Shown: positions 14,305-60,803 of the stretch, piece by piece | How the letters are laid out: every line of letters begins with the position of its first letter | Position numbering within the stretch: the stretch's first letter is position 1 | Origin: Letharia columbiana | Lineage: Eukaryota > Ascomycota > Lecanoromycetes > Lecanorales > Parmeliaceae | Assembly (NCBI RefSeq): GCF_014066305.1 | Contig: NW_023501166.1 | Span: 95,572-159,571, forward strand | Direction of reading: 5' to 3' | Length of the DNA: 64,000 nt | Translations under genes and position numbers: made by a program | Notes under the pieces: generated by a model | Databases searched by the model: none | The model's input: only the letters and a program-made list of their open reading frames with translations | Told to the model about the DNA's origin: nothing

Positions 14305-15682
14305 ATGGGTACCCTTACTTCGCTTGCTGAAGAGATACTTGCGAATGCGAAGCGTCTTGACCAGCACCTCTCATCCCAACATGTGATGCCCACCTCTTTT
14401 GACCATGACAGCCTCGCAGACCTGCCATCCGAGCTGGAATCCACCAAAAAGGCACTCATCAACTCAACCCAGACGTTGAAACAGCTATGTCAAGGCCCCG
14501 TTGGCAGCTCGATGGAGATTATATTCAATGTACGCGCTCTCAGCCCAACATCACGGACTGAATGCCCATACTAGCATATTCTCAGTGGACCGACCTCCTT
14601 TCACTACGAGTGATATATGAATTTAAGCTCGCCCAAGCCGTCCAGGTTGAGGGTTCAACAACTTATCATGAGATCTCTTCAAAAAGCGGCCTTCCTGAGG
14701 CTTTGGCCCGACGTTTCATGCGCCACGCAATGGGAAACCATATATTCGCAGAAGTATCTCCTAACGCGGTCCGACATACAGCAGCTTCGCGAATGATGGC
14801 TACAGACCCCGATTTCTTTGACGCGGTTGGACTGGAGGCATCGGAGCTCGCGCCGACGGCAGGCAGAGTTATCGAAGCCTTGAAACGGTACGGCGACTCA
14901 GGTGAGCCAAACGAGTCGGCCTTCAGTATGGCGAATGAGACCACCTTGTCCATTTTCCAGTTTCTAGGTCAACACCCGGAGCGTGCGAGGCGGTTCGGTT
15001 CTGGTATGCGTTTCTTCACCAAAGGCGAGACTTGGGATCTGAAGCATCTCGTCTCGGGCTTCGACTGGGCTTCTTTTGACCACCCTGGCGCCACGGTGGT
15101 AGACATGGGCGGCGGCAACGGCAGCGTCTCACAATTTTTAGCCAGGTCAACTCAGCACATAACATTCATTGTCCAAGATCTCCCTGGCACAGTCGAGCAG
15201 GGCCGCGCGTCGCTCCCGGTGGAGTTCAAAGGAAGGGTCGAATTCATGGCCCATGACTTTTTCACCGAACAGAAACTGCAAAATCCTGACATCTACCTAT
15301 TTCGGTGGATTATGCACAATTGGAGTGACCCGTATTGCATGAAAATGCTGCAAAATTTAATCCCAACAATGCGCAATGGCTCCCGTATCCTTCTCTACGA
15401 ATGCGTCCTTGAAGATACACCAGCAACACTGCTGACGGAGAAAATGGGACCGTATGTCTTCTACAAAAGGTGGTATGTATCTTTAACAGGATTCAGCTGA
15501 CGAAAGTCGTTGATAGGAATTTAGACATGATCATGGCCGCCTGCTTCAACAGTGCCGAGCGCACAAGAGCTGACTGGCTTCGTTTACTCGAAAAGACCGA
15601 CAAGCGCTTTTGTCTCCACAGTATTTCCCAGCCAGAGGGAAGCACTATGAGTATCATCGAGGTACTATGGAAGTCCGCATAA
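14305..15682 (+). CDS. S-adenosylmethionine O-methyltransferase, family 2 (secondary metabolism type)
   Basis: Cytosolic O-methyltransferase of the plant COMT/fungal sterigmatocystin-type family, which methylates hydroxyls of aromatic polyketides and similar products. Three exons (introns 14530-14585 and 15452-15516) give 418 residues, the usual length. Seen features: helical N-terminus, winged-helix dimerisation segment (TYHEISSKSGLPEALARR), SAM-binding loop VVDMGGGNGSVSQFLA, VQDLPGTVEQG, and RWIMHNWSD, whose His is the catalytic base position of this family. NLDMIMAACFNSAERT and an ISQPEGSTMSIIEVLW ending complete the fold. No polyketide or peptide synthase lies in the window, so I cannot assign a product. 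It converges with the receptor gene downstream. Confidence 0.93.
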
Positions 15683-22511: not shown

Positions 22512-25500
22512 TCAAGGTTTCTCCACCTGCTCGAACCCCTCCAGATCCTCCTCATCTTTCTTTTCCTCTTTCTCTCTCCCCTTCTCCAAGTGGCCAGCGC
22601 GCTCTCCAAATTCCCTCCCGATCTTTAGCATGGTTTCAACTTCCCTAGCTCCCAACATCCTACCCTTCCTCTCCGCCAAAACCCTTGCAGTTTGGACCGT
22701 CTTTTTGATCTGGTGCCCGTTGATGTCATCCTTGCTCCACTTCTGTCGAGCAAGCGTGCGCAAATCAGCAGATTGTGATGCGTTGATGGTGCCTTCATCG
22801 GACAAGTCCTGAATTTGATTGAACCAGACCCCAATTCTACGGGCACGGTCCAGAGGAGGTAGGCAGAGGGTAATATCGATGCGCGGCATGAGGCCTTCGT
22901 CGAATTTGCTGACGCGATTGGTGGTGATGAAGACGATACCTTGATAGTATTCGATGAATCGCACGAAGCTCGATACAAGATTGTTGCGTTTGAGATTGGC
23001 ACATTCATAATCACGTCGAGCTTGTAAGAGGACGTCTGCTTCATCGAACAGCAAGATGGCACCCCATTTTGTGGCATAATCGGAAATTTCTTCTAGTTTC
23101 TCATCAAATACCGGCAGGGAAGTTCCAATATCGCTGCAAGTGACAGGGAATAGAGGTTTGCCAAAATGTTCCGCGATAGATTCTTGCGATTTCCATCAGC
23201 AATGAACGGCGCTAGGACGAGTTCTCGAATACGTACCAGCAGTCAGCGTTTTGCCCACACCTGGCTCGCCGTGTAGCAGTATGCTAAGTCCTTTTCCACC
23301 TGCTGAACCTCTCAATCCAGCGACCTTCTCATCATGAGATGAGACCATGGTTTCTAGGATGTCTTTGTATTCTTCGTCGAGGAACAGACGGTCCCAGGCG
23401 TTTTCTTGGAAAGACACCGGCTTGAGTTGTGATACGTTGAGGAATTCTAGACTCAAATTAGATTTCGCAGGAAATAGCGCACTGTATACACTTACTCCAC
23501 ACTTTGTCCCGAAAGGAGAAGCCACGCACATGTTGCGGACAAAGCATCAACGTGAGCTCGTCCATCTCGGCATATGGCCGGATCAGATCGTATTTCTCGA
23601 ACTCGCGGACGACAACATGCGAAGGACGATCTGATGAATAACTTCGGCAAGGTTCAGCTTGAGGGTCCTCAGGTTTGTCGATGCTTTCGATCTCGTAGTC
23701 TCTGCTGCAGTATTCATCCTCAAAGTGGCGCACGAGGGAGCGCTGGGGTGTATAACGTCTTGATCGCCGGTCAACAGCGTCGCCACTTGTATCCCAATCG
23801 CTGTATCTGTTTTCTTTCCAGCTCCTGTCCTTGGCACTGGAGGGTCCGTACTTTCCATTGACGGAGATGAGCCACCCGTTGCGCTTCTGATAAGTTAGAT
23901 GATCCACCATGATACGAGTAGACTGTGAAGGAGAGATCTCGCTCTCTTGACAGTGCTGTACCTGAAAAGCACAGAACTTTCTTCCGCGAGATAGTAGCGA
24001 TTCTCTGATGGCGTTTCGGTCCAAAAGATATTTCTCCGGGACTAGGGACAGAGAGCTGATGTCCCGGACACCATGGAATGGAGCAACGCAATGAATGGAC
24101 CAAACGCGGCCATATACCTCACCGTCGAAATTCATGGACCATGCTCTGATATCGAGCCTGGTATGGGCGTGACCGTTGTCTGGCGACGGTTTTCGTATCT
24201 GCATACCATCGAGAGAGTCAACGACGAAAGCTTCCCATTCGCCATTGCCACGGCTGTACACCGTCGTGCCAGGTCGATAAAGCATCCACAAGTCACTGTA
24301 TTTGACAAGGTTCGGAGGCGTCACCGACTCAAAGTTGTCAAGCACTCTACTAATGTCGCTGAAATCGCTCCTCAGGAAGTTCAAGATAAATTTCGTGTGT
24401 TCCTTGACCTGTGTGGACTCTTTGGTATTCTCCACATAATCCGTGAGCTGCTTGCGGTTGAGGAACAGAACCATGAGGGGCTCCATAAGGTATAAAACAC
24501 CCTCGTGAAGGGCAAGGTCGCTAATGTTATGCCGAGACACTTGCTTGAGGAGGTCGAAGAAGGTTGGGGATGCAATTTCGATTCGCCTTCGCCAGAACTG
24601 GGTGCGATCATATTCAGATACGGCGGTCACAAGCGGCCAGTCAGGCGGGATTTCGAGAACGGGTGTAGACATTCCATCACGCACTGCCTCAATTCTTTGA
24701 TTCTCGCCAAGATGATTCCATCGCGCGACCTCAAGGCTTGGTCCCTCAAGGGCTTTTGCGTCTCGCTTCCCTTTCTTCACTTCCGGCTCGTAGCTTATGG
24801 TTTCATCATCAAAGTCTTGTGGGTACCTGGCTGCTCGACCGCCCTTGTGGCTAACGTCAGAGACCGAGTCTACAGAGTCTCCACTATCAGAAATCGAAGA
24901 GTTGGTAGGAGAGCCAGGGGCGCCCTCACACTCTTCGACACGGGACTGTAGATCGCTGATTTTTGACTCCAGCTTGTGTAAAAAGTCTACATCGACCATA
25001 GTTCTCTCGTTGTTCCCGTTTGGTTGTTCGGGACTAATGGTTGTGGGAATGATATCAAGCTTGGGAGGATGCCGAAGTCCCGATGTAACGATGTGCTTGG
25101 GCCTGAGGTGTGTGTCAAAGAAATCGAACCCTTTCCTCCCAACGTTGTCAGACGATTCCGGGCAAGGTGTTCTGCCGTAAGCAGTAGCTGGAGGCGCTAG
25201 CACATGGGCTTCCTCAACATGTTCGAAAACATCCTCCTCGTCTCCAAAATCGTTGCGTAGAAAATGGTCACAGTCCTGGAAGGAGCACCCATGTTGATTC
25301 TTAGAGGGGTCGTGCATTCTGTGGATGGCGGCGTCTCCATGGACGAGGAAGGCCTTCGGTCCGTGACCATGCATTTTGTGGACTTCTCTCTCGTGACGCA
25401 GCAAGCAACCAGCGGACGAGAATTGTGTGCCGACACATTCGCCGACGTCGCAGCGGTATGGCTTCAAGTGCGAGTCTAGGTGTTTACTAGAGCGGCGGTC

Positions 25501-26080
25501 AACTTTAGTGGGTAGAGAGATCTTCAGACATGACTGACTCGAAATTGGACTTCAACTTCTGTGGTCTGTACCAACACACCTCCAGAGCCGCGTACGGACA
25601 GTGGTACCGCCCATCCTCGTCTGGTTTCATTTTGTAAAATGAATGCTGACGCGCAATTCTGAGCCTGGTACCCCCGAATGTTTCATGGACAAATGCCTGC
25701 CCAATCTTGTGTCCGTCTTCATCGAGTACCTCACCTTTCTCGTTGAGGGGGAATCCTTCCAGCTCTTCTGGGTCCGTCAGGCTGTCGTCCTTAACTTTGC
25801 CGAGCAGTGTACCATCAGATCCCCAGATCATCCCTGCTTGGCCAACTTTGAGACCTTTGAAGACACTCGGTACTGAACGCTGTGCATCTTCCGTTTTGCC
25901 TGGGCTTGTGGGGTCGTCGTCTGTGCTATGAGGCTCGTCAATGTCACGATTCGCGGCTTGCCCATGAGTTGATTGCCAACGGGAAGCAAAACGCTTGAGC
26001 TTCAAGTCAGCCATCCTCGATTCGTAGGACTGGCGTTCGCTCATCGTGCCGGGGCGTGATGATGGTAAGGAAGATTGCAT
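22512..26080 (-). CDS. large AAA+ ATPase with LEA-like and C2H2 N-terminal modules
   Basis: Four exons (introns 25487-25538, 23447-23495 and 23183-23236) give 1137 residues. Domains in order: a LEA/DUF3659-like stretch around residues 80-145 (GSDGTLLGKVKD, LNEKGEVLDEDGHKIGQAF); C2H2-like zinc modules from about 165, with KHLDSHLKPYRC rebuilt across intron 1; a linker with a helical segment; the DUF7025-type region that normally precedes this ATPase (PGTTVYSRGNGEWEAFVV, LMLCPQHVRGFSFRDKVW); and one AAA+ module. The module has Walker A GEPGVGKT near 904-911, Walker B LLFDEAD near 958-964, sensor-1 FITTNR and a C-terminal lid. The tail is charged and helical. The family is common in filamentous ascomycetes but its substrate is unknown. 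The start could be the ATG at 26044 (MSERQSYE) instead. Fusion of LEA-like and zinc parts to the ATPase is the unusual point. Confidence 0.85.
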
Positions 26081-38681: not shown

Positions 38682-40565
38682 TCTTGTCGAGGGCTGTTGA
38701 ACCGTGAGGTTCTATGCTGGTCCAATGCTCAATTGAAGTGCCAAATGATAGTGATAGTCAAATGGGAGGCTTCACGGGTGGTGAATCCCATCTATGATGA
38801 AGGAGTAACAACTTCCCCCACTCGATGGATGGATCTGCGAAGACGAATGAGGTTCTATCATGAAGAGTATCAGGTACGTTGGTTTCCAGGCGTGTTTGTT
38901 CCGAAGGAATCCAGAAGGAGGGGTTTTAGTATGCTGATGCTCCTGATGCTCCTGATGCTCGAAGTTCAGTAGTAATGAAAGAGTACCAGTAGTGGGTGGG
39001 GATATTGAGACGACTACGGTACTTTTTTGCTGGACAGCGCTAAACCAAGCCCTCGGGCTGGTTCGCGCTAAGAATTAAGTCAGAGGTAAGGAACTAACAA
39101 GCATTCTGCATTCTGCAAGCATCTGCAAGGTATAACAAGGTATAAGAAGGTTAGCTAACGCTTGGGAACTTGGGAAGCCAGTGGCCCAAATGTTGGGAAG
39201 AGCGGGCATAATTCCGTGACGCCAAGGCCGAATTTGTTTAGTGCCCTCCTTTTTATCTTTTTTATCTGCGCTGGTTGAAGGTTTTTGTGGAGAATAAAGT
39301 GTGATAATGGAGATTGCTCCACCCTTGTCTTCAAATCAAAAGTTGGATGTTGATCTACCGCGGAGCCATTAATCTCCTCATTTATATTGGCTACTACTGA
39401 GCATCACACCACTCGATGAGATGACTTCCAATTCATCCACAGTCGCACATCCCAAAATCTCTGCCAAGCCGATGCAACCTTCCCCTCGGTCCCCATCCTC
39501 TTTCATCGACTTGCATGTTGGCAAATCGCATTTCCCCCAACAATGATTCCTCCTGCCAACGACTGCCATCCATCTGTGACCTGTCGTCACAATGCGTCGG
39601 AAATTCCCAGCGCGCGGGATGGCTTGTTAGTCTCTCGGCATTACATGACTATATTCCTGGCGGGCTCCCGATGCCCGTATCGGTCTGGAGAGTAGGGGCC
39701 CGGGAGAGTAGCACGAGTGAAGTGAAGCTTTATTTTAATTCAGCACGTTTTGCCGAAATAATCCACAAGTCACATGGAAAAACGTGAGAGCGTTCTGCAT
39801 ATCACCATTGCTCGTATACACAACCACAATCATCCATAGTGATTCGAAGCGACATGCACTTACGGACATACCTAGCGCTATCACAGTTGATTGTTACTGC
39901 ATACAGTTCGTGATCGACGATGTCTTGATAGAGATGATGAATTGTGCTTCATCACTACACTACATTACTTTACTTCAATAATCAGTAATCAATCCAAGTT
40001 AAAAATGGGGGTTTGTCCGGTATGATGGTTCTCCGTATCTCAAACATGGTCCGTCAATTTAGATCCAAACTTTCTTTTTTTAAGGTGATGACAGGCTTGG
40101 TAGCTTGGCAGCTTGGCAGCTTGGCAGCTTGGCAGCTTGGCATCCCTGCGTCTTCGTTTTGACTCTTGAGCCTTCGCTTGCGACCCTGCCCTGCCCTTGG
40201 ATTCATCTTAACTCTACTTTACTTTAAATCTTAACCCCAACCCATTCATTATTGGCTACCAACCTAATCCTTATTCGGCCACCTGCAGTCAGTCTTTAAG
40301 GCTGAGCCAGAAAGTTCAAAGCTCTGTCATACCTATTGAATTGCTTTCCTCCAATCTCGAGAACACGAAACGAATCATGTGATGAATTGGCATCAAGACA
40401 CGTATGAAGAAGCCCATTGCTCCTTCGTGCTTATTCAGCTTCAATGGCTGCAGCCTAAGGTGCTCTTATACCCGATCGCGTAGTCGCTAAAGGAAAACTC
40501 TCACAACATTTAGTGACTTCGTTAAGTGACTTTATCTTCTTTCCTCCCCAGATATATTTGCGGTG
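38682..40565. other. intergenic region with an 8-bp minisatellite
   Basis: No gene is supported. Five perfect head-to-tail copies of agcttggc lie at about 40102-40141. A smaller run of gatgctcct repeats is near 38935-38960. The end of the region is the presumed promoter of the F-box gene. Confidence 0.5.
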
Positions 40566-43030
40566 ATGTCGGTTCGGGGATTCCACAAACCCGTGGCGCA
40601 GAGCAGGGCGAGATTATTTGACCGTGCAGGACGGAGTGGCTCAGATTTCTCTCCTTTAGTTGATGCTTTTCACCCTTCCTTTCCAGCCTCGGTTGAGGAT
40701 TACATCTCAGAGACGTGTGAATTGAACACGGAAGCCCCAACACTTGGCCGGCTCGCTAATGATAGTAATTGCCTAGACGGGTACCCCTGTCATGGTAACC
40801 GCTTCGGGCACAATGCCCGATCTCGAGTGAACAACGCCTCAATGAATTGGGACTCTGCTGAGACTGACAGCGCAAGCGATGCCCATTGCTACCATGCAGA
40901 GGGTCATGGAGATACCCTTTCGCGTGGCACTAATGGTCTCCTATTCAAATTGCCTTCGGAGGTGTCAGACCTGATACTATCATACCTGTCACCGGCAGCG
41001 CTCGATGCTGCTAGGCACACTTGCAAGGGTTGGCGGACGAGGATTTTGTCCAATACTTGGGTATTAGCCTCAGTTCTCGGCGTCGAAGAGAAAAGGCCAC
41101 CGTTGGATGCATCATCAGGGGGTAAAATTAGCCATCGAGATCTTCTGAAGAATCTGGACTGTGACAGCGACCTACCGGCGACTTCCCAGCACCCGGACGC
41201 CTGGCGTACCCGGTTCCGAACACGAAACTTGGAGTTTTCAATACCGTCGCCATCTTCGACACTGACGAGGCCTGCTTTTGTTGCTGCCGCGAGGACGGGT
41301 ACTCAAAATGGATTTCTGGCCTTCCAGCTACAAGACTCGGCCCAAAGTACAGGGAATCGCTTGAAAAACACATTGGTTATCTACCGCTTCGATTCGGCTG
41401 ACCTTCCATGGTATGCTGGCTCCATTCATAATGTTGGAGGCCAGGGCGCACTGCGTATCATGGGTGTAGCCGAAATCAGACGGCACGCGGAATGGGTACT
41501 AAAGATAGAGATCGGCGATACTGCTGGGCTTTACTCGTTGACTGCTCGCAAAGCCTTTTCGAAGTCTGATTCCCGGTTCTCATTGACAATGTTGAAACCT
41601 TGGGAGAAAATACCTGGCATATCACATGACAGATTCACAATCCAAGGAGTCGATGGACCTCCTGAGTCCCTCCCGAGTGGCGACCAGTCTTGGAATGTTT
41701 TAGCACCTTTTCCGCCGAACGGAGGAGTATGTGTATCACCCACTTTTCGTTAGAACTCTGGCACTACGATGCTAATATGGTGCAGCTTCGCCATGTTTGT
41801 TTCTCAAAAGGCCTCCGCAAACACACAGAGCCTCGCTTCCTGGCTGAGCAGACGAAAACCGGCAATATACATGTTATAATGGAAGTCGACCCCTCCGAAA
41901 GGCCGTCTCAATACGCCAGCTATTCGCAGTCAAAATCTCTGTCAAATGGTTCTGAAAGAGGCAATCACTACTTCACGGGCACAGCGCTTCTGTCCCGCCC
42001 TCGACCAAATTCGGTCTATAAAAATGTTGCAGTCGCACCAACCACTGTTAAAGATGGGGGTATTCGAGCCGCCATTATTTGGCAGACCACAGATTTGGAG
42101 GAACCAATATCCGAACTCTACATTTACGATATCCCAGAAGCGATTTACTATGAACCCTGTAGATCATATAACCAAAAGATCTCGGTAAACGTCTCTGCAA
42201 CCTCTGGAGAATTCGGTGAAGGTGCAATCCTACGACCTTGCCGCCTTGTCCAAGGGAAGCGCGTCACGTCCCTCGACCAGCACATGGGTGGCACCCATCC
42301 ATCTAGTCCTCTCTACCGCCGTGCATTTCCACAAGAGACAGCACTGGGCGGCCTCCAATTCCCTCATACGACTGAGAATCAGGAGACCTACCCACGAAAC
42401 GTGCAGTACCAGAAGTGCTTTGCTTGGGGTCCAGCCACTTCTGATGGGGCATGCACACAAATATCCTTCAAGGTCTTCGATCTCAGCTTCGCGGACCCGC
42501 AACGCTTGCACTCCCTCATCACCCACGGCGTAGGAGCGGGGCAGCGACGGGATCAAAAACATCACAACATAGCGCTCAATGCCCTTCATTGCGCATGCGC
42601 GTTGCACGACGATGCTTTCCGGATCGTTGTCCCCGACGTCACAATCGTCGAGGCCAAGCCCGCCACAAAGCGCGACAATGCGTGTGAGAGCGCTCCGTCC
42701 TGGCCGGAGAAACCCGCTACTCCGAAGGAAATCTTGTCATTCAGCGGGATCGGGTGGTCCTTTTGGCCGCAGCGGAAACCGACGTCGGCTCCGGACAGCG
42801 CGCCAAGCGTCGGTAGCTTGTCGCGCGATGATTCATCGGCGAGGCGGGCGGCGCTGGAGAGACGGCAGGAGTGGCTGCGGGGTCGTATCCTGGGGATGAA
42901 AAGGGCGGGGCTGACGGATTTCGAGATCGCGGAGCTCTGGAACATGAGCGCTTGGACGCAGTACGGGCAGGTTAGGAAACCGGAGGGATGGCAGGAGTTG
43001 GGGAAGGGTCACGGAGGAGAGTGCGTATGA
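40566..43030 (+). CDS. F-box protein with large C-terminal domain
   Basis: Two exons joined at intron 41727-41785 give 801 residues. After a ~120-residue low-complexity N-terminus comes an F-box, around LLFKLPSEVSDLILSYLSPA and then CKGWRTRILSNTWV. F-boxes recruit Skp1-cullin ubiquitin ligases. The remaining ~600 residues look like a beta-rich, repeat-less domain (LVIYRFDSADLPWY, LRIMGVAEIRRHAEWVLKIE and similar) that I cannot name. The C-terminus has a helical, Arg-rich end with GLTDFEIAELWNMSAWTQYG. The first ATG is at 40566. Codon use and frame are continuous across both exons. Substrate is unknown. Confidence 0.85.
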
Positions 43031-44340: not shown

Positions 44341-45899
44341 ATGGACTACAACAGCACCCGCATGAGCCAGCAATTCCGCTCCCAAAGCCAGCCCACTGGC
44401 GGCCGAGGGAAACAACAACAAATTGACCCCGACGTCATGATGCGCCTGGTATGTCGCAATGCCTCCATAATCCCGCACTGCAGTCGCTAACGGCGCGATA
44501 CCAGCCCGACCGAGAAATCGTCGGATGCATCAGCGACATCGGCGTCCAATTCGCACTGGAGGACCTGCAGAAACCCAACCCGCAGCAGATACAGAAGATC
44601 TTCGAATGGTTTGCGGAATTGCTCATGAATACAACGCGGGAGACGGTGGAGCCGGCCATGCGTGCTGCTGCGGAGGAGATTTGCGGGGAACATATGGAGA
44701 TCGTGCCGCCGGATACGAGGAATTTGATGGGCTTTTACGTGTCGCTACGGAAGTTGCTGGTCGAGGTAGGACTGCACACTGGGTGCTGTATGTGTAGTGG
44801 GCTAACGGGTCTGCAGTGCGGCATTGCAGATTTTTCCTTCAATGACCTGCTCAAACCTACGCACGACCGCCTCGTCAAGATCTTCTCCTACGTCATCAAC
44901 TTCGTCCGTTTCCGAGAGTCGCAGACCGCTACTATCGACGAGCACTTCAACAAGGCCGAAAGAACCAAATCCCGCATTGAGACGCTCTATCTTGAGAATC
45001 AAGACATGGAGTCACGGCTTGACGAGATGAGGCGGGAGCGCAAGTCAATGGATCAACAGGTCAAGGAGAAAACGAAGCGCAACGACGAGCTGAAGCAGCG
45101 GCTGTTAGAGCTCAAGAAGGGCCAAGAGCGAGTGGCGGAGCGGTTGGAGAGAGTACGAGGCGAGAAGGGCAGGCTGACGGGCGTGCTGGAAGAGAAGACG
45201 GAGAGATGTCTCGGCGTGAGGCAAGAGTCTGAGAAGCTACGACCATACGTTTTACAGTCGCCGGCTGCTTTACAGGCGAATCTGACGGAGCTGTCCGAGA
45301 ACCTGGGACGGGACAGATCACAGATCGACTCGCTAGAGAAGCGAACAAGAGCCCTCCAGACCAGCACCGACACATTCGGCGTAGTGACGAACGACGTCGT
45401 CTCTTGCACCAAGATCCTGGAAGAAATCTCAAACGAGCTGCACAAAGAAGACGAAGAAAACCTCAAAGCCGCCAAACGACGGGACGCCCTCTCGGAACGT
45501 GGCAACAACGTGCGAGAAGTCGAGCGAACGGAAGCGGTGCTGCAACGGCACTTGAAGAGATGGCTGGAGCGAACGGAGACGGTGAGGAACGGGAGCCGGG
45601 AGAAGGCGCAGTCGGCGAAGGAGAAGATGGAGGAGCTGAGGAGCGTACACCGCCGACTTACGGAGGAGAGGGTGGATAAGGGACGGGAGATGGAGAAGAG
45701 GAGGGTTAGGATTGAGCAGACGGAGAAGAAGGTATGTTGAGGGTCCAGACAGTCTTGAGCGCATCCACTAATCAGATAACGTCAGATGGCCGACCTGAAA
45801 GAGAACATCGAGGACGAGATCCACTCGGCTCACGACCAGTATCTGAAGATGGACTCGCACGTCAAGCTTTACATGAACGAGATCGAACATCTGATGTAA
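44341..45899 (+). CDS. NUF2: Ndc80 kinetochore complex subunit Nuf2
   Basis: Nuf2 pairs with Ndc80 to form the microtubule-binding arm of the outer kinetochore. Four exons (introns 44449-44504, 44766-44816 and 45732-45785) give 465 residues. The N-terminal third is the calponin-homology head: [56 protein letters not shown] and [20 protein letters not shown], all family hallmarks. From residue ~165 a long coiled coil runs nearly to the end, with heptads rich in Glu, Arg, Leu and Lys, as expected for the rod that joins Spc24/Spc25. The short last exon gives [20 protein letters not shown] and ends HLM. All splices keep the alignment. Confidence 0.95.
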
Positions 45900-52143: not shown

Positions 52144-53100
52144 GGTGGGTGGTAGTAGGACGAAGAGCGGTGGAAAGGCGATGTCTAGGGTATGACTTTA
52201 AGAGGTATGTTGCTTCCGTGGAGTGTGAACCATACACTTGGGAGGAGGTTTGATTGGAAGACACGACAGAGCGGTACAGCTGTGACGATCGGGTTGACTG
52301 TATGAGTTGCGTTGGTCGTTACTCATGCACCAACACAACGTGAGTCATACACTCACAGTGAAATAGCAGAACGACAAAGGAGAGCGGAAGGTGTAACTAT
52401 TAGACTGATGGCAAAGTGTTATTAGCACGTGCAAGGTGCGGATCCTGCATGAGAGTGCCGAGACAAGAAGCGTGTAACGCGCATACTAGCCTCGCCAGGT
52501 AGCAGACAGGTATAAGTCATACCTTAGATACGTAGTTGAAAGATCCTGGCAGGACAAACACGAATGCAATACAGTAATGCTTTAGTCAAGAGATTCAAGC
52601 ACAAATACTGAAGGACTTTGATCGTTTACACATGTGCATGCATTCCGGATCATTCTTCTCTAAGCCATTCATGACCAGGGCTGCGACTTTCTTGGTTTCT
52701 CTCTTTCAGAGGGTTCCAAATACGACAAGCATGGGCTTTCACAGGTCTCTACCCCTACCTCTCCCTTGCTATGATTGATCTCCTCGTTTACTCGCAACGA
52801 GCTAGCAGTCGATTCTGTCGTAGCTAGTCGAACTTCCAAGTCCATCGTGATGAGCGTAGGCCTAGGAAGTCCAGGCGATGTGCTCAGAGGGTAACAAACA
52901 GGTGCTTGCTCACGTGCTCACGCAATGATGCTTGATGGCTGTAGTATGGAGAATGTAATGCGCTTGGCAGCAGCCGATCGCTTATCTGCGCACTAGGCGA
53001 GCGCCTACCACGTCTAATCAACCCGTTCGAGGTCATCGAAATATCCCGCTGCAAGCCATGGCCTTCGTCTTGCGCTTCCATTGCCACCGAGCTTGTTGCA
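52144..53100. other. intergenic region, no supported gene
   Basis: No gene is supported in this stretch. The repeat module of the three-gene family starts at its right end. Confidence 0.45.
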
Positions 53101-53322
53101 TCAGACGAGAGTGTGATGTGGCTTGGGAGGCCGAAGCTACATCATTTGATTATGTAAACCATTGAGTTTATTTAAAATTGGTAGAAGGGAATATGTTCTC
53201 GGCGGAGGGGGCATGCATGTAAAAATGAAAACTACTACTCTAAAAGTGTGTCTTGGCGAGAGATGCCAGCAACGCATGATAAGTACTTTTACACTGTACC
53301 CAACAAGCAATATTAGTCGGGG
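53101..53322 (-). repeat. 3' flanking repeat module of family gene A
   Basis: This stretch matches, with scattered differences, the flank at about 55120-55331 beyond gene B. Shared blocks include gggaggccgaagctac, ggcggagg, atgccagcaa, gcatgata and caagcaatattagtcggggctaa. It contains the stem-loop at 53299-53322. It lies downstream of gene A on that gene's strand, at its expected 3' end. Confidence 0.7.
53299..53322 (-). promoter_or_regulatory. conserved 3' stem-loop, copy A
   Basis: On the minus strand (sense for gene A) CCCGAC and GTTGGG pair around an 11-nt loop TAATATTGCTT. One position is a G-U pair where copy B has G-C. It lies about 160-183 nt after the stop codon of gene A. Upstream of it are the family blocks caaagacactctttt, cttgcgattt and gttagc. 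An RNA 3'-end or stability element is inferred from conservation and position only. Confidence 0.55.
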
Positions 53323-53481
53323 CTAACAGTTAAATCGCAAGCCAAATTGAGACATGAAAAGAGTGTCTTTGCCGAAAATCAGAAAAACAAAACCCTCAAC
53401 GCTGGCCCGTGCATGCGTTTGCAAATCAAATAATCCGTCTCACTCGCATCCCCCGAGTCTCACTGTCTTCTTCCACACTAC

Positions 53482-54404
53482 TCATTCGACCTCCTCTGGT
53501 ATTAAAGCTGGGTTCATCAAAAGTCCCAATTTGGTACACTCCCGATGTAGAAGATCAGCCTTGCGTCCAAAGTGTGTTGCGTGTTTGTCATCCCTCAATG
53601 CATTACTCACCATCCTGGAGGTCCAGTTGGCTGGATCTGCCAGGGTTACGTAGGGCTCGAATCTCTGGTCAATGCGAATGTCGATGTTGTAATGGTGGCC
53701 AACCATTGTTACAACATCCCACTCGGTCGGTAGGTCGCCTTCGTCGTCCGTGCACTCATTACAGAGCCAGTGAATGAGGTAAAGTTGGTCATCCCGACAC
53801 TCTTCACCGTCGATGGTCGGTCGTTTCCTGTACCCAAAAGCGTACAGCGACCGCGTCCACCACAAGACATTCAGCCTCCCTTCACTGCAAGGCAGCAAAA
53901 CGACAAGTCAGCAAACATCTTTCCACAAAATCACATCCCGACTTACAATCCAATGAGATTCTGCGCTCTACTCTGGGCGCCGGGAGTCACCTTGAGAAAG
54001 TGTTGGAAACAGATTTCGGCCAGTCTTTTTAAGTCTTGTTTCTTCTGCTCGTCCAGAAAGTTGAGTACCCGTGTCGTGTTTTCAGCATCAGAGCTCTCCA
54101 ATCGGTCGAATAGTCGAAGACGGTGTAGCGCGTGGAAGATCTGGTCGGGGTAGAAGATGTGCAATATGCCTTCGAGCTCTTCCAAAGTCAATAATCTTCC
54201 ATCAGGCCGAACCCACCAGTAGCTAGCGAAGGCGATGGAGAATATGGGAACAGGCATGTGAGAGACGGAAAGCAATGGCATGTCAGACGTCATCAAAGGG
54301 ACCTCTGGGAGCGCTGGTAGCTGTTCCCCAGCGCCGCTCGACACTTGTACTAACGACCATATGAGCTGCTGCGTTGCCTCTCGCGTTGTAACTATGGGTC
54401 CCAT
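53482..54404 (-). CDS. three-gene-family protein A (short form, no Lys/Gly tail)
   Basis: Unknown protein of 286 residues, two exons, intron 53885-53946. The start at 54404 is chosen because its surroundings align with the starts of genes B and C (cacttcatctatcgtattcg upstream); an ATG at 54455 lies in the shared leader. Exon 1 has PDGRLLTLEELEGILHIF and RLRLFDRLESSD, ends AQSRAQNLIGF, and breaks in phase 2, exactly as in B and C. Exon 2 has VVTMVGHHYNIDIRIDQRF then YVTLADPANW, comparable with gene C's HYYNW...SVTFADP. The third exon of B and C is missing and the shared 3' flank follows about 40 nt after the stop. No signal peptide or membrane segment is evident. Function unknown. Confidence 0.7.
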
Positions 54405-54529
54405 TATGGTGCCGAGGTTTTTGCTCTCGAATACGATAGATGAAGTGTCCGTCACCAGGAAATGGGTCGATCAAGGATAATGATACGTGGATCTCAGAAT
54501 GGAGAGGGCGAGGAAGACTTTTGGGGAGA

Positions 54530-54775
54530 GAATCAGCAGATGAAGGATTATACTGAAGGTGTCTTATCAACAATCTGTGAGCCGATGAAAGAATGTACGA
54601 AAGATGTCTTACGGGGAGTGTCTGTGTGTGAGCAGATAAAAGAATGTATTGCAGGTGTCTTATGAGAAGTGTGTTCTTGTGAGGAACTTGTGGGCAGATA
54701 GAGGAATGAACTGAAGATATGCTGTGAGAAGGAAAACAGCAGATGAAGAGAAAGGCCCCATTTATGGAAAAAGGC
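54530..54775 (-). promoter_or_regulatory. gene A leader: imperfect ~44-bp tandem repeats and TATA-like box
   Basis: On the minus strand, downstream of a TATA-like CCATAAATGG (about 54760-54769), a repeat of the general form cataagacacctt, cagtacattc, tttcatctgc, tcacacac occurs about four to five times with substitutions and small gaps. The same arrangement precedes genes B and C. The distance from the TATA-like box to the ATG is about 360 bp. It probably forms the promoter and 5' leader. Confidence 0.6.
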
Positions 54776-54846
54776 AGATATGTCCATCCTTCCTCTAACC
54801 TTTTTGAGGGAGTATATTTTATTTTAGATGTGTGATAGGCAAAATA

Positions 54847-55210
54847 TCTACGGCGGAGGTAGTCAATAAAGGTGCAACGTTTCAGCTGCTCAATTCTACC
54901 AATTTTAGTTTCGAGATTGTTATATTAGAGGGCGAGGGTGAGATATGCCGTGGGAGATTGAAGCTACTTTCTTTGACACTTTGAATTGTTACAGTTGTCT
55001 GAGATTGATAGAGGGGTATGTGCTCTAGGCAGAGGTGGTCGACAAAGGTGGAACGTTTCAGATGCTCAATTGTACCAACTTTAGTCTAGATATTGTTACA
55101 TCAGAGGGCGAGGGTGAGATGTGCCGTGGGAGGCCGAAGCTACTTCCTTTGATACTTTGAATTGATACTTTGAATCGTTACAATCGTTTGATATTGGTAG
55201 AGGGAATTGT
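54847..55210. repeat. two tandem copies of a ~176-bp unit
   Basis: Copy 1 (about 54847-55020) and copy 2 (about 55023-55200) share cggaggt, aaaggtg.aacgtttcag, tgctcaatt, taccaa, tttagt, attgttat/aca, gagggcgagggtgaga, tgccgtgggag, aagctact and actttgaattg, in order. A partial third copy continues into the gene B flank and another lies at about 53101-53215. No coding frame is present. The units separate genes A and B and are probably duplicated 3' or promoter flank. Confidence 0.75.
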
Positions 55211-55307
55211 GTTCTGGGCGGAGGTGACAAGCATATATGTCGACTGAAACTAGAATCATCTCTTGGCAAGAAATGCCAGCAATGCATGATACTCTATTAA
55301 CGCTATA

Positions 55308-55331
55308 CCCGACAAGCAATATTAGTCGGGG
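55308..55331 (-). promoter_or_regulatory. conserved 3' stem-loop, copy B
   Basis: On the minus strand CCCGAC pairs perfectly with GTCGGG around the loop TAATATTGCTT. It lies 76-99 nt after the stop of gene B and is preceded by tttcagcttgcgatttgaat, as in gene C. Same candidate RNA element as at genes A and C. Confidence 0.6.
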
Positions 55332-55406
55332 CTAAAAATTCAAATCGCAAGCTGAAATTCCGTTTTCATATCTTCGTCTCACCCCACCCGTATCTCCCTC
55401 ATCTCA

Positions 55407-56670
55407 CTATTTTCCACTACGACGGGGTTTTTTTGGAGCCTTTCCTTTCCCCTTCCCAGATGTGTCTCCTGGTGACTCAGAACTAGACTCATATGCCCTC
55501 GCCTTGCCCTTGCCCTGGATGGTGCTGTCTGGCTCCTTGCTTCCGCTTGGACTGGGGGTGGACAGAACATTGTGGGGATAGAATGGCTGTTTTGCCTTTT
55601 CCCTTCGCCCTTCCTGTTCCTCCTCTTCTTCGTTTGACTCTTCCTCTTCTTCGCTTGACCCTTTCTCTTCTTCCCTGCCTTGCTCTTCCGTGGAGGGACC
55701 TGACAGAGGATCATGGATGTTTGAGCGATGCGGACCTCCTCGGGTAGGCTGGCCCGAAGCTGAAGCGGTTGCTGTTAAGGTGGAGGACCTCATTGTTTCG
55801 GTGACAGCTGCAATAGGATCGCTTTTGGATCAACTTGTAAGCATATTCTCCTCTGCGCCAATAGAACATGGATCATCTTACGGGGGTAGTCTAAGCTTAG
55901 GTAATGGAAACCCCTTGTCTTGTGTATATCGCACATGCATCCCATGAGCCTTGTTCGCAAAGTGAAGCAGAATTGCTCTGTCCATCATAACCCCAGCCAC
56001 CGCTTTGGTGATATCTTTTTCTGGTGTTGCTAATAACTCGAATACACGAATTGAACCGGCCTCGACTTTGAACACATAAATTCGGGCAACTTGTATGGCC
56101 ACAAATTCGCTTATGTGGTTGTCTTCGTCGTCGCGGCAAAAATGGTATAAAGGGTATAGGATGCAGAGCTGTTCAAACCGGATTCTTTTTTGGTTCCATT
56201 CAGGCATGACAAAGAACCGCATTGGCAGTCTCTTTAGTCTATGATCCAGCAAAAAGAAGAATTCAGCGATGTAACAGTTGGCAGAATCATGTCTGGACTT
56301 ACAGCCCCTCGAGAATCTCGATTCTGTCTGTAGCATCCCCGCCCTTTGCCTCGTCTTTTGCCCTCCATGTCTCAAGTAGGTTTCCGACTTCGTCCTTTAG
56401 GTCTTGTTGGTGTTGATCGTCTTGCTCGACCAAAGCTCTGATTTTGATTGTCAATGGATCTTTGGGGTCGTCGAAATGTTCCAACAACTTGGAACTGGGG
56501 GGAGAGTCGTCTAGGTCGCACATGATGCTGATTATCCCAAAGACCTCGGGTTGAACTAGAGGCCTTCCCCTAAGATCGAACCGATTGTTGGCAACGAAGA
56601 TACGTTCGAGCTGGTTAGTGGAGATGGTTTGACCGCCCGCGGACGGCACATATCCGGGCTTTTTCGGCAT
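55407..56670 (-). CDS. three-gene-family protein B
   Basis: Unknown protein of 379 residues in three exons (introns 56239-56302 and 55822-55881). Exon 1 begins MPKKPGYVPSAGGQ; it has GRPLVQPEVFGIISIM and LLEHFDDPKDPLTIKIRALV, comparable with gene C's LLERFDNPTDGITIAFRRV, and ends in phase 2 after ILEGL. Exon 2 is acidic and aromatic (LYPLYHFCRDDEDNHISEF). Exon 3 starts near TLTATASASG, like gene C's LTATASSSS. It has a long Glu-rich run and ends with GKGKARAYESSSESPG then GKGKGKAPKKPRRSGK. This tail, shared with gene C, is basic and disordered and could be nuclear or nucleic-acid binding; that is inference. No recognised domain. Confidence 0.72.
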
Positions 56671-56789
56671 GTTGGCAGAGATATCGTTTGAATAAGATGG
56701 ATGAATTGCCGATCTTCAGGGAAAGGAATTGGTCAAAGAGGATGGTGTGCGGAACTTTGATAATGAGAGGGTGTGCTTTGTGTCGAAGG

Positions 56790-57030
56790 TGGCTTTTGGA
56801 GGAGAGAATCAACAGATGAAAGAACGTGCTAATTTTTTTATGAGGAGAGCAACAACTGACAGAAAGATTTTTTGAAGGTGTCTTATGAGGGGTGTGTGGG
56901 TAGGTGAGAGAAAGTGCTGATGTTGTATCATGAGGAGTGCGGGAACAAATGAAAGAGTGTGCTGAACTTGTTCGATGAGGAGTATGAAGAGAAAAACAGA
57001 AGATGGAGGGAAGGAGTCCAGCTTTTATAA
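56790..57030 (-). promoter_or_regulatory. gene B leader: imperfect ~44-bp tandem repeats and TATA box
   Basis: A TATA box, TTATAAAAGC, lies at 57021-57030 on the minus strand, about 350 bp before the ATG. It is followed by about five imperfect units such as actcctcat, gaacaagttcag, cacactctttcattt and cccctcataagacacc. It aligns in layout with the leaders of genes A and C and shares the end cttattc.aacga.atctctgcc with gene C. Confidence 0.65.
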
Positions 57031-58210
57031 GAGAAAGACAGACATACTGTCTCACCATCCCCTCCATAGTTCCCTCGGCACTTGCACGATGTTCAGAGTA
57101 CGAGGATTCTGAGACAGTGCAGCCATGGAACTCGCCCTTTTTCGAAGGCAGAGGCGTCCAAATGGGAGGCTGCATGCTCAGAGAGACATCACTGTTTGAG
57201 ACCTGATGTGTATTCGAGTCTCTGAGGTTGCAAGAGCATGTCTCAGGCTCCCAGATGACAGAGATGCGGTATTATGATTGGTGACAGAGAAAATTTCGAA
57301 GCCTAGAGTGGGTCTGTATCTGAGAGCTGAGGTGTTTGAGCCTCCGAAGTTGCAGGAGCGTTTCTCAGTTTCCCTGGCGAAGGAAATGAGGCAAAGCTGT
57401 TGCCGAAGGAGAGGGTGCCCCAGCCTAGAGTGGGTCTGCATGTTTGTAATGTGGGTCTGGAAAGCATGTGCGGCTGCCGGCGTGCCAAAGCCTGCCGCAA
57501 AAATTGCCCTGACATGCCGAGATGGTTCGCTACTGGTCCTCGAAACCATACCGCTGCCTAGTGTATGCCCGTCTGGGGCTGCTCCTGTGACAGCATCCAT
57601 GAGCACATCAGGCGAGGACGCAAGAAACCGACCGTACAAAAGCTCGGCCTCGAAGGTTTTCCTGTTTCAAAATTGTCGCCCAACAGTCATTTGCCACGAT
57701 CTCCTCAACGATACCACTACCCTGGTGTTTTATTTTTCTATCCCCGGCCGCTGTGACAGAGTTCCTTGTGCCTCAGCCGTGGGCGTCAATGCGAAGACAC
57801 AAACGCGGTGTCGCAGCGTGGTTGGAGTAGATCTGCCACCCATAGACGCTGTCTCCAAAGTGCATCGGAACCTCGGCGTAAAGAGCGCGGCATGGCCTCG
57901 AAAGGTTGCCCGAACTCGAAACGTTGCGATTAAAACATTTGGCGCTGATGCATTATGTGCCAAGAACTTAGAAATGGGCATGAATCGCTGAAACATTTAG
58001 AATCAAGGTGACCAAATCGCGGCGCCATTTCCGTCAAACAATTGACCAAGCATCCGAAACAAAATTGGTACAATTCGGCAGCTCAAACGTTCCGCCTTTA
58101 TCGACCACCTCCGCCGAAGAAGTTTTACCTCCTACACACTTCAAACAGGATATGCTCCCTCCAAAAAGTGTCAGGGGTAGAATAGACAAGGCAGCAAATC
58201 AGTGTTCTCT
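57031..58210. other. shared promoter region between divergent genes B and C
   Basis: About 1.2 kb lies between the two TATA boxes. It holds imperfect direct repeats: one of ~60 bp (about 57203-57265 and 57327-57388, sharing gaggttgcaagagc/gaagttgcaggagc), and GCCTAGAGTGGGTCTG at 57301 and 57423. Long frames on both strands exist but start with TTG, not ATG, and match nothing I know. Confidence 0.45.
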
Positions 58211-58440
58211 TTATAAAAGGCTTCTCCCCTCCTTCTGCAGTCCTTCTTCTCGCAACACACCTTCAACTTCTTCTTCCATCTACCCACACACTCCTCCTAA
58301 GATCCTCCCAAGACACCTTGGGCATACTTTTACCTCTGCACACACTCCTCATGAGACACTCTCTGTATACACATACTCCTCATAAAACACTCTCTGCACA
58401 CGCACGCACCTCATAAGACGCTCTTCGCAGAAAGCAGACT
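58211..58440 (+). promoter_or_regulatory. gene C leader: TATA box and imperfect ~44-bp tandem repeats
   Basis: TTATAAAAGG at 58211-58220 lies 320 bp before the ATG. The leader then holds imperfect units ctcctcctaagatcc, ctcctcatgagacac, ctcctcataaaacac and cctcataagacgctc, each with a tctgcacacac-like linker. This matches the layout of genes A and B. The end, gtccatcttattcgaacgac, is shared with gene B almost base for base. Confidence 0.65.
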
Positions 58441-58539
58441 CACTCCTTATCAAACAGCTGCACATCCTCACCCTATTCCAGCTCCTTTTCTGGAGACCGA
58501 CACTTTGTCCATCTTATTCGAACGACATCTCTGCCCAAG

Positions 58540-60182
58540 ATGTCGGCCAAAATGCCGGTCAATATAGCTTCCAAGCTCACGTCAGAAGCAGGGCCTTCAA
58601 ATAACCGACAAGCAGCGGCAGGTGGTGGACAGGAGCCACTTGGTATCGGAGAGAACCGCGGAGCCGTCGGTTGGGTGTCAATTACAGGGCCCGGTGGCGA
58701 GCGGCAATTCCAGCCCAACATAATATGGCCCAACGGCAAGAAGGAACAGCTCCCAATACTTCCAGCCATCCCTATGACATTCGGATATGGGCCATTGCTG
58801 GATGCCAGAAACGCGCCCGAAGTTGTCCGACTCACGATTACTTTACACGTCTTCTCCATGTATGTTTGCCACATGTGGTACGAGTACCTCGGAAGGCTAT
58901 TGGTTCGGGAGGAAGTCGTGGGCATAATGCGCATGGTTTTTCACGGCAGTCAGTGGGTCGCGCAAAAGGGACTTCTCGAAAGATTCGATAACCCCACAGA
59001 TGGGATCACAATCGCATTTCGAAGAGTGACCGACGCAGTGAAAGACACAGTGAGAGAAGAATGGTGCCGCCACGTTGATGGTTGGTTCCAGCACTTTCGA
59101 GCTGTTGACCCTGCAGCCAAAGTTAGAGCCGAAGAGCTTTATGGTTTGTAAGTCCGATCTTGGTTCTTTGGACTAGAATACTGCTGAATCAACTCTTTTT
59201 TGCTGCACTGCAGCATAGGGAGGCCGCCGTTGGTTCTTGATACTACGCGTAGGGATTATAAAGTGAACGCGGAACAGATTGAACCCTACCAGGCCTGTAC
59301 CCATTACGGTGTAGTCAATTGGGGCACAAATCGCGACAACGAAAAGTTGAGAGAAGAGGATACCAGAAAAATTCTCGGCCACTATTACAACTGGAAGTCT
59401 CCTGGACCAATACGCCTCTCCGTGACCTTTGCAGACCCAACTTACCAGGCCACTAAGAATGTAGCTTTGGTGGCTAATGATCCAAAGTACAAACCATTTT
59501 TCAAAACTTTGAGCGAGCAGTGGATTAGTAAATATGAGGTAGAAGTTCTGGGACTGAAAGCTCGGCCCAATACAGAAATGTAAGTTGATCTATGTTCTAT
59601 TGAGGGAAAGGAGGAAATGCTTACATCTGTAACAGCGCTTCTCAAAGCGGCCTCGTTTCAGCGACGACTTCAAGTCTTGGAGCATTATCATTGACGGCAA
59701 CCGCTTCAAGTTCAAGTCAGCGCACCACGTCAGGTCTAAGCCAGCTGACCGATTATAAAGCAAGTTATGGATTCAAACCCATGATAGCTCCTGGACCCCC
59801 CAGTGCCACCCCCAGTGCAGCCCTCAGTGCATCGCCAAGTGCATCCCCCAGTGCACCCCCCAGTGCACCCCCCAGTGCATCGCCAAGTGCATCCCCCAGT
59901 GCACCCCCCAGCGAAAGCAGCAGCAAGGCGTCAAGCGGAAAAGGCAAGGAGAAGGAGACGACTCCAGAATATTTCAGACAATTCACCGATTATGATGACT
60001 ACGCTAGGAGTGAGTCCGCAGGGTCTCCGCCACCTCCTGGAAAGACCACCAGCGACGATCCAGCCAATAAAGGGAAAGGCAAGGCTAGGCGACGAGAATC
60101 TAGTTCTAATTCACCACCGAAAACAGAAAAAGGAAAAGGAAAAGGAAAAGAAAAGGTGGAAAAACGTCAACGTCGTGATTGA
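58540..60182 (+). CDS. three-gene-family protein C (longest member)
   Basis: Unknown protein of 506 residues in three exons (introns 59148-59213 and 59580-59635). Exon 1: MSAKMPVNIASKL, a Gly/Pro/Asn-rich stretch, then GRLLVREEVVGIMRMVFHG, LLERFDNPTDGITIAFRRV and AEELYGF, with the intron in phase 2 as in A and B. Exon 2: GRPPLVLDTTRRDYKVN, KILGHYYNW, IRLSVTFADPTYQATKNVAL. Exon 3: LTATASSSSQRTT, then a Pro-Ser-Ala array encoded by ~9 imperfect 12-bp units (about 59805-59916), EYFRQFTDYDDYARSES, and a tail GKGKARRRESSSNSPP with GKGKGKEKVEKRQRRD. No signal peptide, membrane helix or known domain. The array should vary in length between isolates. Confidence 0.75.
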
Positions 60183-60299
60183 AAATGGTAGAACGTGCAT
60201 GAAAGGTGTGGAGGGCAGTGGTGGAAAGGAGATGCGGGTGGGGTGAGACGGATATTTGAAAACGGCTGCACGGACCGGAGTTTGGGGATTTGATATCCG

Positions 60300-60530
60300 A
60301 CAAAGACACTCCTTTTCCTAATTTTGATTATTAGCCCCGACTCATAACACTCCTTGTCGGTTGGTTGCAGCGTGGAGCCTTAGCATGCGTTTGGAGGCGA
60401 TTTTTTGCCAAAGACACTCTTTTTGTTTCAGCTTGCGATTTGAATTTTTAGCCCCGACTGATGTTGCTTGTCGGAAGCATGCGTTGTTTTTCTTTGCAGC
60501 AGCCCCGACTGATACTCCTTGTTGGGTGCA
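60300..60530 (+). repeat. gene C 3' flank with three stem-loop copies
   Basis: On the plus strand (sense for gene C), stem-loops lie at 60336-60360, 60453-60474 and 60504-60526. Each has CCGAC pairing with GTCGG or the wobble form GTTGG, and a loop ending CTT. Each of the first two follows caaagacactc and a T-rich stretch; the second also has the family block cagcttgcgatttgaatt. The first copy is 154-178 nt after the stop, the same place as in genes A and B. Confidence 0.65.
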
Positions 60531-60803
60531 GCGACAGCGAATAGATAGAGCTTGCATTCATTGACTTAGCGACTAGCCTTAATAATCCATGCGCATCACA
60601 TCCTAAGTTGTGGCGAGTGCTGATCAGTGAGCATGCTGCTAGTGACTTCTTGGAAACATTGTCCGGACCTCGGTGTTCGGAGCACATTTCACTGAAAGCG
60701 GAGGAGCTACCATAGATATATCCGTGCCTCTGAATTCAATACCCCGAACCTGCCTATTCACCTAGCGTGGAGTCCCGAAAAGCCCTAGAGTCTACATACA
60801 CAG

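Follow-up and report, generated by a model that had tools for sequence, protein, structure and literature searches.

A candidate family of modular genes with shared flanks and divergent coding parts in the lichen fungus Letharia columbiana

In the variant-antigen cassettes of trypanosomes (VSG) and Pneumocystis (MSG), divergent coding sequences lie between shared 5' and 3' elements and are subject to exchange, with a single active copy and switching. The fungal HET/NLR heterokaryon-incompatibility genes are variable and multi-locus, with a repeated unit as their variable part; they make unlike strains incompatible when these fuse and show balanced polymorphism. Exon-encoded repeat proteins with symmetrical exons carry one unit per exon. 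For the variable cell-surface AGL genes of arbuscular mycorrhizal fungi, passages of one study give identities of 63-71% for introns versus 42-61% for mature coding DNA (PMC8786786). Sections of another study describe the existence of vegetative incompatibility in lichen fungi as unclear, and report several genomes of Letharia thalli as well as hybrid thalli that are triploid-like (PMC10512270). Here we describe three neighboring genes, A, B and C, in a stretch of 64,000 nucleotides (nt) from Letharia columbiana, the lichen fungus of a wolf lichen (Parmeliaceae). This stretch, hereafter the window, is part of contig C131 (NW_023501166.1, positions 95,572 to 159,571) of a genome of 52.2 Mb in 161 contigs. 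Judged from their sequences, these three loci belong to a small gene family that had not been described before.

An earlier note on this DNA had proposed a family of three genes whose proteins align only over short motifs. Its observations proved correct and, if anything, understated, and its interpretation half right. A, B and C are homologous, but the family is bigger, with at least six members, D, E and F being located on other contigs. The proteins are indeed remote (25-38% identical in the six A-D pairs over 143 core codons, the DNA being 44-54% identical), but homology among A, B and C was confirmed by searches of the fungus's own genome. A finds C (E-value 6.7e-8) and C finds A (3.5e-8); C and B form a reciprocal pair (C finds B at 0.005 and B finds C at 0.008). 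Neither A nor B finds the other directly in these protein searches, and D finds all three. Units 2-3 of E and gene F match each other in genome searches (5.7e-12 and 2.2e-12). By sequence search, the A-D and E-F groups are joined by a weak link, from B to E at an E-value of 0.09. In profile comparisons, unit 1 of A-D matched the set of all E-F units with a probability of 96.9% (E-value 1.3e-10) and unit 1 of E-F with a probability of 95.1%, and unit 2 of A-D matched all E-F units with a probability of 96.0% (4.2e-9), the best of 60 column shuffles for each test reaching at most 1.1%. A match of A on contig C11 (E-value 0.35) was dropped, as it sits within an open reading frame (ORF) of 769 residues that looks unrelated by eye.

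In the rebuilt gene models, A lies on the minus strand at 54404-53482 (two exons, 286 amino acids), B on the minus strand at 56670-55407 (three exons, 379 amino acids, provided that a weak AAAG acceptor is used) and C on the plus strand at 58540-60182 (three exons, 506 amino acids). All five introns of these genes are 56-66 nt long and in phase 2. The phase-2 intron after exon 1 that had been claimed for all three genes, and the second one claimed for B and C, are both present in these models. Exon 1 encodes a unit of about 100 residues, which is probably helical, and exon 2 a related unit; this arrangement, with unit 1 in exon 1, a phase-2 intron and unit 2 in exon 2, was found in all six members. 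D and F have the three-exon plan with a basic tail, so that exon 3 with such a tail is found in B, C, D and F (4/6), in which exon 2 is of phase 2-2. E, whose annotation (HO173_000568) shows this phase-2 intron too, has intron 1 only, as annotated; it carries units 2 and 3 within one exon and has a tail without intron 2. A is tail-less. In intron 2 of B, the frame is kept only through the AAAG acceptor, a TTGCAG acceptor giving a truncated protein; given this weak acceptor, gene B may be mis-spliced or decaying. The tails (105-186 residues) contain 9-16% hydrophobic residues and have a net charge of +7 to +11 in the last 40 residues. The basic tail noted earlier in B and C extends to D, the tail ends of these three proteins being 51-59% identical over 32-37 residues, partly through a shared Lys/Gly composition. 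Exon 3 of C also contains a 12-nt tandem repeat (window 59780-59947, plus strand) encoding a Ser/Ala/Pro-rich repeat, perhaps of variable length.

The relationship between the units was seen by profile comparison, unit 1 matching units 2/3 of A-E with a probability of 96.7% (E-value 3.8e-10; shuffles at most 0.8%, reversal 0.1%) and the other units within E-F alone with a probability of 93.7%. Taken singly, unit 2 of E, A and D and unit 3 of E beat every one of 1,800 shuffled sequences. AlphaFold models were all-helical and poor, with a mean predicted local distance difference test score of 52 for A exon 1 (seven alignment rows) and 31 for E (three rows).

No known family had been recognized in the earlier note, and no convincing match was found here in curated family models or solved structures. 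Pfam gave no match for A, D, E and the units of B and F (B and F were scanned without their tails), and the sole match of C was SAP130_C (E-value 0.94), over its low-complexity tail. NCBIfam gave none for E, for the units of D and for P0004, an ORF that varies little from A exon 1, with six differences in 170 residues (the first residue being left uncompared). Solved structures searched by sequence gave a best E-value of 0.097, with none convincing, and an Rfam scan of window 53000-60700 gave no match at an E-value of 1. Among about 5.8 billion proteins, residues 1-335 of C matched nothing at an E-value of 0.001 or below, E matched only itself and two close variants at 0.1 or below, and the A-D profile matched two ORFs at 1 or below, a variant of A exon 1 and B's own, with no NCBI-named protein matching A-D; because this search depends on shared five-residue words and caps length, it may overlook relatives that are distant or split. 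The literature on Letharia genomes and gene families, HO173 names, lichen allorecognition and incompatibility, and conserved flanks, judged mostly by titles and abstracts, yielded nothing on the family. These searches thus yielded no described relative, and L. columbiana is the one named host of the family.

The earlier note had also reported flanks more conserved than coding sequences, and this contrast was confirmed, with identities of 44-54% for the core DNA of A-D versus 74-96% in local alignments of the flanks. The best local alignments were those given in Table 1 for the 5' flank pairs A-C and B-D and the 3' flank pair A-B, together with B-C (96% over 49 nt) and C-D (80% over 86 nt) for the 3' flanks, the sharing of which had likewise been claimed, and 79-85% over 46-47 nt for intron 2 (B-C, 83% over 46 nt). 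The flank and intron alignments scored far above 50 shuffles each, whereas some exon pairs (e.g., exon 2 of B and C) did not. By global alignment, intron 1 is 54-76% identical among A-D and intron 2 is 75-79% identical among B, C and D, that of F being 60-64% identical to these. In a blastn comparison of 12 flanks and 40 control pieces (40 kb from the same genome, the control pieces overlapping one another), matches with an E-value of 0.01 or below were obtained for 6/6 A-D 5'-flank pairs, 4/6 A-D 3'-flank pairs and the 5' pair of E and F. None of the 12 flanks matched any of the 40 control pieces, and no A-D flank matched a flank of E or F; the 38 control matches were those of overlapping pieces, and the pair formed by the B 3' and A 5' flanks is the same DNA. 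DNA searches with the 5' flank of C that came out negative were discounted, since they failed to recover the known copies at A. The TATA position was shared in part, with TATAAA at -359 in B and -328 in C, but only CATAAA in A, at -362. In addition, a long direct repeat of about 200 nt, with three copies by eye, lies upstream of the TATA box of D (L019 5400-6000, minus strand), and parts of it recur upstream of B.

Two short elements accompany these flanks; their patterns were derived from these very copies, and it is their scarcity in the rest of the genome that is informative. A 34-nt 5' element has three sites genome-wide (at most three mismatches), all in the cluster, two before A and one before C. 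A hairpin-like 3' pattern has seven sites genome-wide, five in the window, one behind D and one on contig C2, so that six of the seven lie behind A-D. It is found behind each of these four genes and was not found in the 500 nt behind E and F. The six family hairpins have folding energies of -8.0 to -12.4 kcal/mol (z -0.7 to -2.7), whereas the C2 element forms no stem. Inspection by eye of the ORFs of at least 70 residues at the C2 site showed no family exon, and a seventh member there was rejected. A glycosyltransferase-like ORF with a DXD region (L052 1179-2456, plus strand) lies near this solitary match.

The earlier note had suggested diversifying selection as a cause of the contrast. If recent duplicates had simply been driven apart by selection on their proteins, as happens in venom or effector genes, the flanks would record the true age of the genes and only amino-acid sites would have raced ahead; this would fit flanks and introns that are more alike than the coding DNA, and two variants of E that differ mostly in units 2-3 (see below). 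However, over the 143 core codons, pN (the proportion of nonsynonymous differences) was 0.41-0.53 and pS (that of synonymous differences) 0.65-0.78, and identical residues used the same codon in 40-53% of cases, versus 32-34% expected. Synonymous sites are thus near saturation and have diverged beyond the flanks and introns, and the nonsynonymous rate (dN) was below the synonymous rate (dS) in 6/6 A-D pairs, a comparison of low power at such divergence. Because the flanks and introns are more alike than the synonymous sites, diversifying selection on the proteins alone cannot explain the contrast, and we consider this alternative improbable. The contrast is explained by constraint on the flanks or by exchange of flanks, and not by selection for protein diversity alone.

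Conversion of the flanks, the other cause proposed in the earlier note, was examined with four-taxon tree tests of A-D, on six segments with two alignments each, by the approximately unbiased (AU), Kishino-Hasegawa (KH) and Shimodaira-Hasegawa (SH) tests. For the 5' flank (-600 to the start, and also -600 to -250), only the tree joining A with C and B with D (AC/BD) was kept, with AU p-values below 4e-4 for its rivals. For the 3' flank, only AB/CD was kept (rivals, AU p below 0.02). The protein tree prefers AD/BC, and AB/CD was rejected by AU (p about 0.01). A single tree for both flanks is thus excluded, and the coding sequence stands nearer to the 5' flank. Because the two flanks of A-D support different trees, exchange between loci is likely.

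It is also possible, if rather unlikely, that constraint acted on its own, A-D being ordinary old paralogues that have exchanged nothing and in which shared regulation preserves the elements of the promoter, leader, intron and 3' flank. The likeness is patchy and covers, among other parts, the TATA region, the leader, intron 2 and the hairpin-like element, intron 2 of F retains its likeness to that of B-D despite very remote proteins, and the coding tree shows no significant conflict with that of the 5' flank. However, one tree should then fit all segments, yet those of the 5' and 3' flanks differ, and certain pairs match each other best over as much as 280-333 nt.

We consider it probable that A-F form an orphan family in which the flanks of A-D have been reassorted between loci. 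Each gene consists of a promoter with a repeat-built leader, a unit in exon 1 and a related unit in exon 2; most members have a disordered-looking tail with a basic end, and A-D add a 3' flank with the hairpin-like element. Ectopic conversion or recombination would reassort the flanks between loci and so keep them alike, and some flank elements may be functionally constrained, while the coding parts drift apart. A more elaborate arrangement, in which the shared promoter/leader repeats and 3' hairpin-like elements would act as homology arms of a cassette-like system, shuttling divergent recognition units between loci and feeding a self/non-self or partner recognition new to lichens, seems to us improbable.

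A-F could be intracellular recognition or adaptor proteins, although we hold this with considerable doubt. The variable helical units would bind a variable partner, B, C and D would be directed to a common place of action by the basic end that their tails share, and A, which has no tail, may act as a competitor or have degenerated. Self/non-self or partner recognition would be the likeliest use of the family, and it is the weakest part of the explanation; the sole support for a self/non-self role would be the uneven change between two E variants, which a third does not repeat. P0001 (E) and P0002 differ at 59 of 538 residues, with 2/112 in exon 1, 20/126 in the unit 2 stretch, 25/114 in unit 3 and 12/186 in the tail, and none of 20,000 random draws was as uneven (the border being set one residue earlier). 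Their variable sites lie at like places in units 2 and 3 (17/18 within two residues), with 3/100 circular shifts as high, in a frame picked after viewing the data. The partial P0003 (residues 148-538) has P0002-like residues at positions 250, 258 and 261 and at a few other places, a pattern that would be expected from a recombinant or an old shared variant.

Two other roles were considered. The proteins may be nuclear or RNA-binding regulators, with a basic tail that binds nucleic acid and units that dimerize, their fast change reflecting either relaxed constraint or a conflict with mobile elements; such a role would be compatible with flank exchange. The length and charge of the tails and the likeness of the B, C and D tail ends, although partly compositional, would fit such a role, whereas A lacks a tail, the Pfam scans gave no nucleic-acid-binding domain and charge alone is no proof of binding. 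We regard this role as conceivable but not favored. The order of helical units followed by a basic tail also recalls capsid-like proteins, and the family might be a remnant of a domesticated mobile element or of a virus structural gene. This origin is very improbable: the A-F units had no Pfam match, there was no significant fold match (with a poor model), and the introns and shared promoters are unlike recent insertions.

For the explanation as a whole, comprising a modular family, exchanged or constrained flanks and a recognition role, we consider the chances to be about even, and the following results weigh against it. Within A-D alone, unit 1 matched unit 2 with a probability of 34% (E-value 4.2e-4; best shuffle 1.6%), unit 2 of A-D matched unit 2 of E-F alone with a probability of 2.4% (best shuffle 1.9%), and unit 2 of B and unit 2 of C, taken singly, fail to beat the best of 1,800 shuffles. 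Foldseek found no fold match below an E-value of 1.5, a search that carries no weight with such poor models, and the unit is thus without structural support. In the tree tests, the leader gave no signal, intron 1 leaned weakly towards AD/BC (rivals, AU about 0.08), KH and SH did not reject AB/CD for the protein, and the protein did not separate AD/BC from AC/BD (AU 0.30-0.40), so it is indistinct from the 5' flank. Repeats and uneven homology make the flank alignments fragile, which is the main caveat of these tests. Covariation in the hairpin was limited to one stem pair (G-C, G-U, A-U) and was no better than shuffling (253/500). The excess of dS over dN counts here as well, in a test that has little power at such divergence. 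Finally, P0003 differs from P0001 at 1/91 residues in unit 2, 7/114 in unit 3 and 8/186 in the tail and does not repeat the concentration of change in the units, and no HET, NACHT, NLR or WD40 domain was found in the Pfam scans of A-F.

The features of the cluster are listed in Table 1. The setting had been described as accessory DNA, which was not supported because a core gene, the kinetochore gene Nuf2 (window 44427-45737, plus strand; Pfam E-value 5.5e-41), lies about 8 kb from gene A and the guanine-cytosine (GC) content across the cluster is unremarkable. There was no sign of repeat-induced mutation (TA/AT 0.65 in the cluster versus 0.67 in the window; GC 0.486 versus 0.502). Elsewhere in the window, Pfam identified an F-box-like protein (40530-41750, plus strand; E-value 2.4e-7); an O-methyltransferase domain, possibly of secondary metabolism (14562-15497, plus strand; 9e-23), and a large ORF with DUF7025 (23464-25551, minus strand; 2.1e-20) and zinc-finger-like motifs by eye were also found.

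Table 1. Features of genes A, B and C and their flanks (window positions)
Feature	Position	Strand	Remark
Gene A exon 1: N-terminus and helical unit 1, ends in phase 2	53947..54404	-	
Gene A intron 1: 62 nt, GT..AG	53885..53946	-	76% identical to D intron 1
Gene A exon 2: unit 2 and stop, without exon 3 and tail	53482..53884	-	E-value 3.2e-14 to D exon 2
Gene B exon 1: unit 1	56303..56670	-	
Gene B intron 1: 64 nt, phase 2	56239..56302	-	
Gene B exon 2: unit 2	55882..56238	-	identical ORF in database, P0005
Gene B intron 2: 60 nt, weak AAAG acceptor	55822..55881	-	77% / 75% identical to C / D intron 2
Gene B exon 3: low-complexity tail, Lys/Gly/Arg-rich end	55407..55821	-	
Gene C exon 1: long N-terminus and unit 1	58540..59147	+	
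Gene C intron 1: 66 nt, phase 2	59148..59213	+	
Gene C exon 2: unit 2	59214..59579	+	
Gene C intron 2: 56 nt, phase 2	59580..59635	+	
Gene C exon 3: tail with 12-nt tandem repeat, basic end	59636..60182	+	
5' flank of A, CATAAA at 54766	54624..54913	-	74% identical to C 5' flank, 280 nt
5' flank of B, TATAAA at 57029	56894..57246	-	75% identical to D 5' flank, 333 nt
5' flank of C, TATAAA at 58212	58055..58345	+	matches A 5' flank
Leader of A: ~45-nt degenerate direct repeats (families D2, D4, D9)	54531..54750	-	
Leader repeats of C: 31-nt unit, 4 copies (family D8)	58285..58431	+	
3' flank of A	53093..53342	-	80% identical to B 3' flank, 243 aligned nt
3' flank of B	55093..55352	-	matches A 3' flank
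34-nt 5' element copy 1, upstream of A	54856..54889	+	
34-nt 5' element copy 2, between A and B	55032..55065	+	
34-nt 5' element upstream of C	58078..58111	-	
Hairpin-like 3' element of A	53300..53322	-	
Hairpin-like 3' element of B	55309..55331	-	
Hairpin-like 3' element 1 of C	60335..60360	+	
Hairpin-like 3' element 2 of C	60452..60474	+	
Hairpin-like 3' element 3 of C	60503..60525	+	

With their exon-sized units and conflicting flanks, genes A-F offer a clean test case for inter-locus exchange versus point selection in fungal gene families. They are a candidate to examine for lichen incompatibility, and nothing more; a variable recognition family, if such it is, would be directly testable in the several Letharia thallus genomes. 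A-F resemble the HET/NLR genes in their variability, their several loci and their repeated variable unit, and differ from them in having no HET, NACHT or WD40 match in Pfam. Like the VSG and MSG cassettes, A-D have divergent coding parts between shared flanks, with signs of exchange; unlike them, only six genes are known here, and no surface signal was seen by eye. The phase 2-2 exon 2 of B, C, D and F recalls the symmetrical-exon repeat proteins, from which A-F differ in that their unit has no known relative and that E has two units in one exon. AGL genes, in the passages cited, carry endoplasmic reticulum and glycosylphosphatidylinositol signals and were compared between orthologues, whereas A-F are paralogues, with flanks of conflicting history, and by eye their N-termini show neither an obvious signal nor a hydrophobic leader such as the signal peptide of secreted effectors. 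In both A-F and the AGL genes, as described there, gene structure is conserved and introns are more alike than coding DNA (PMC8786786).

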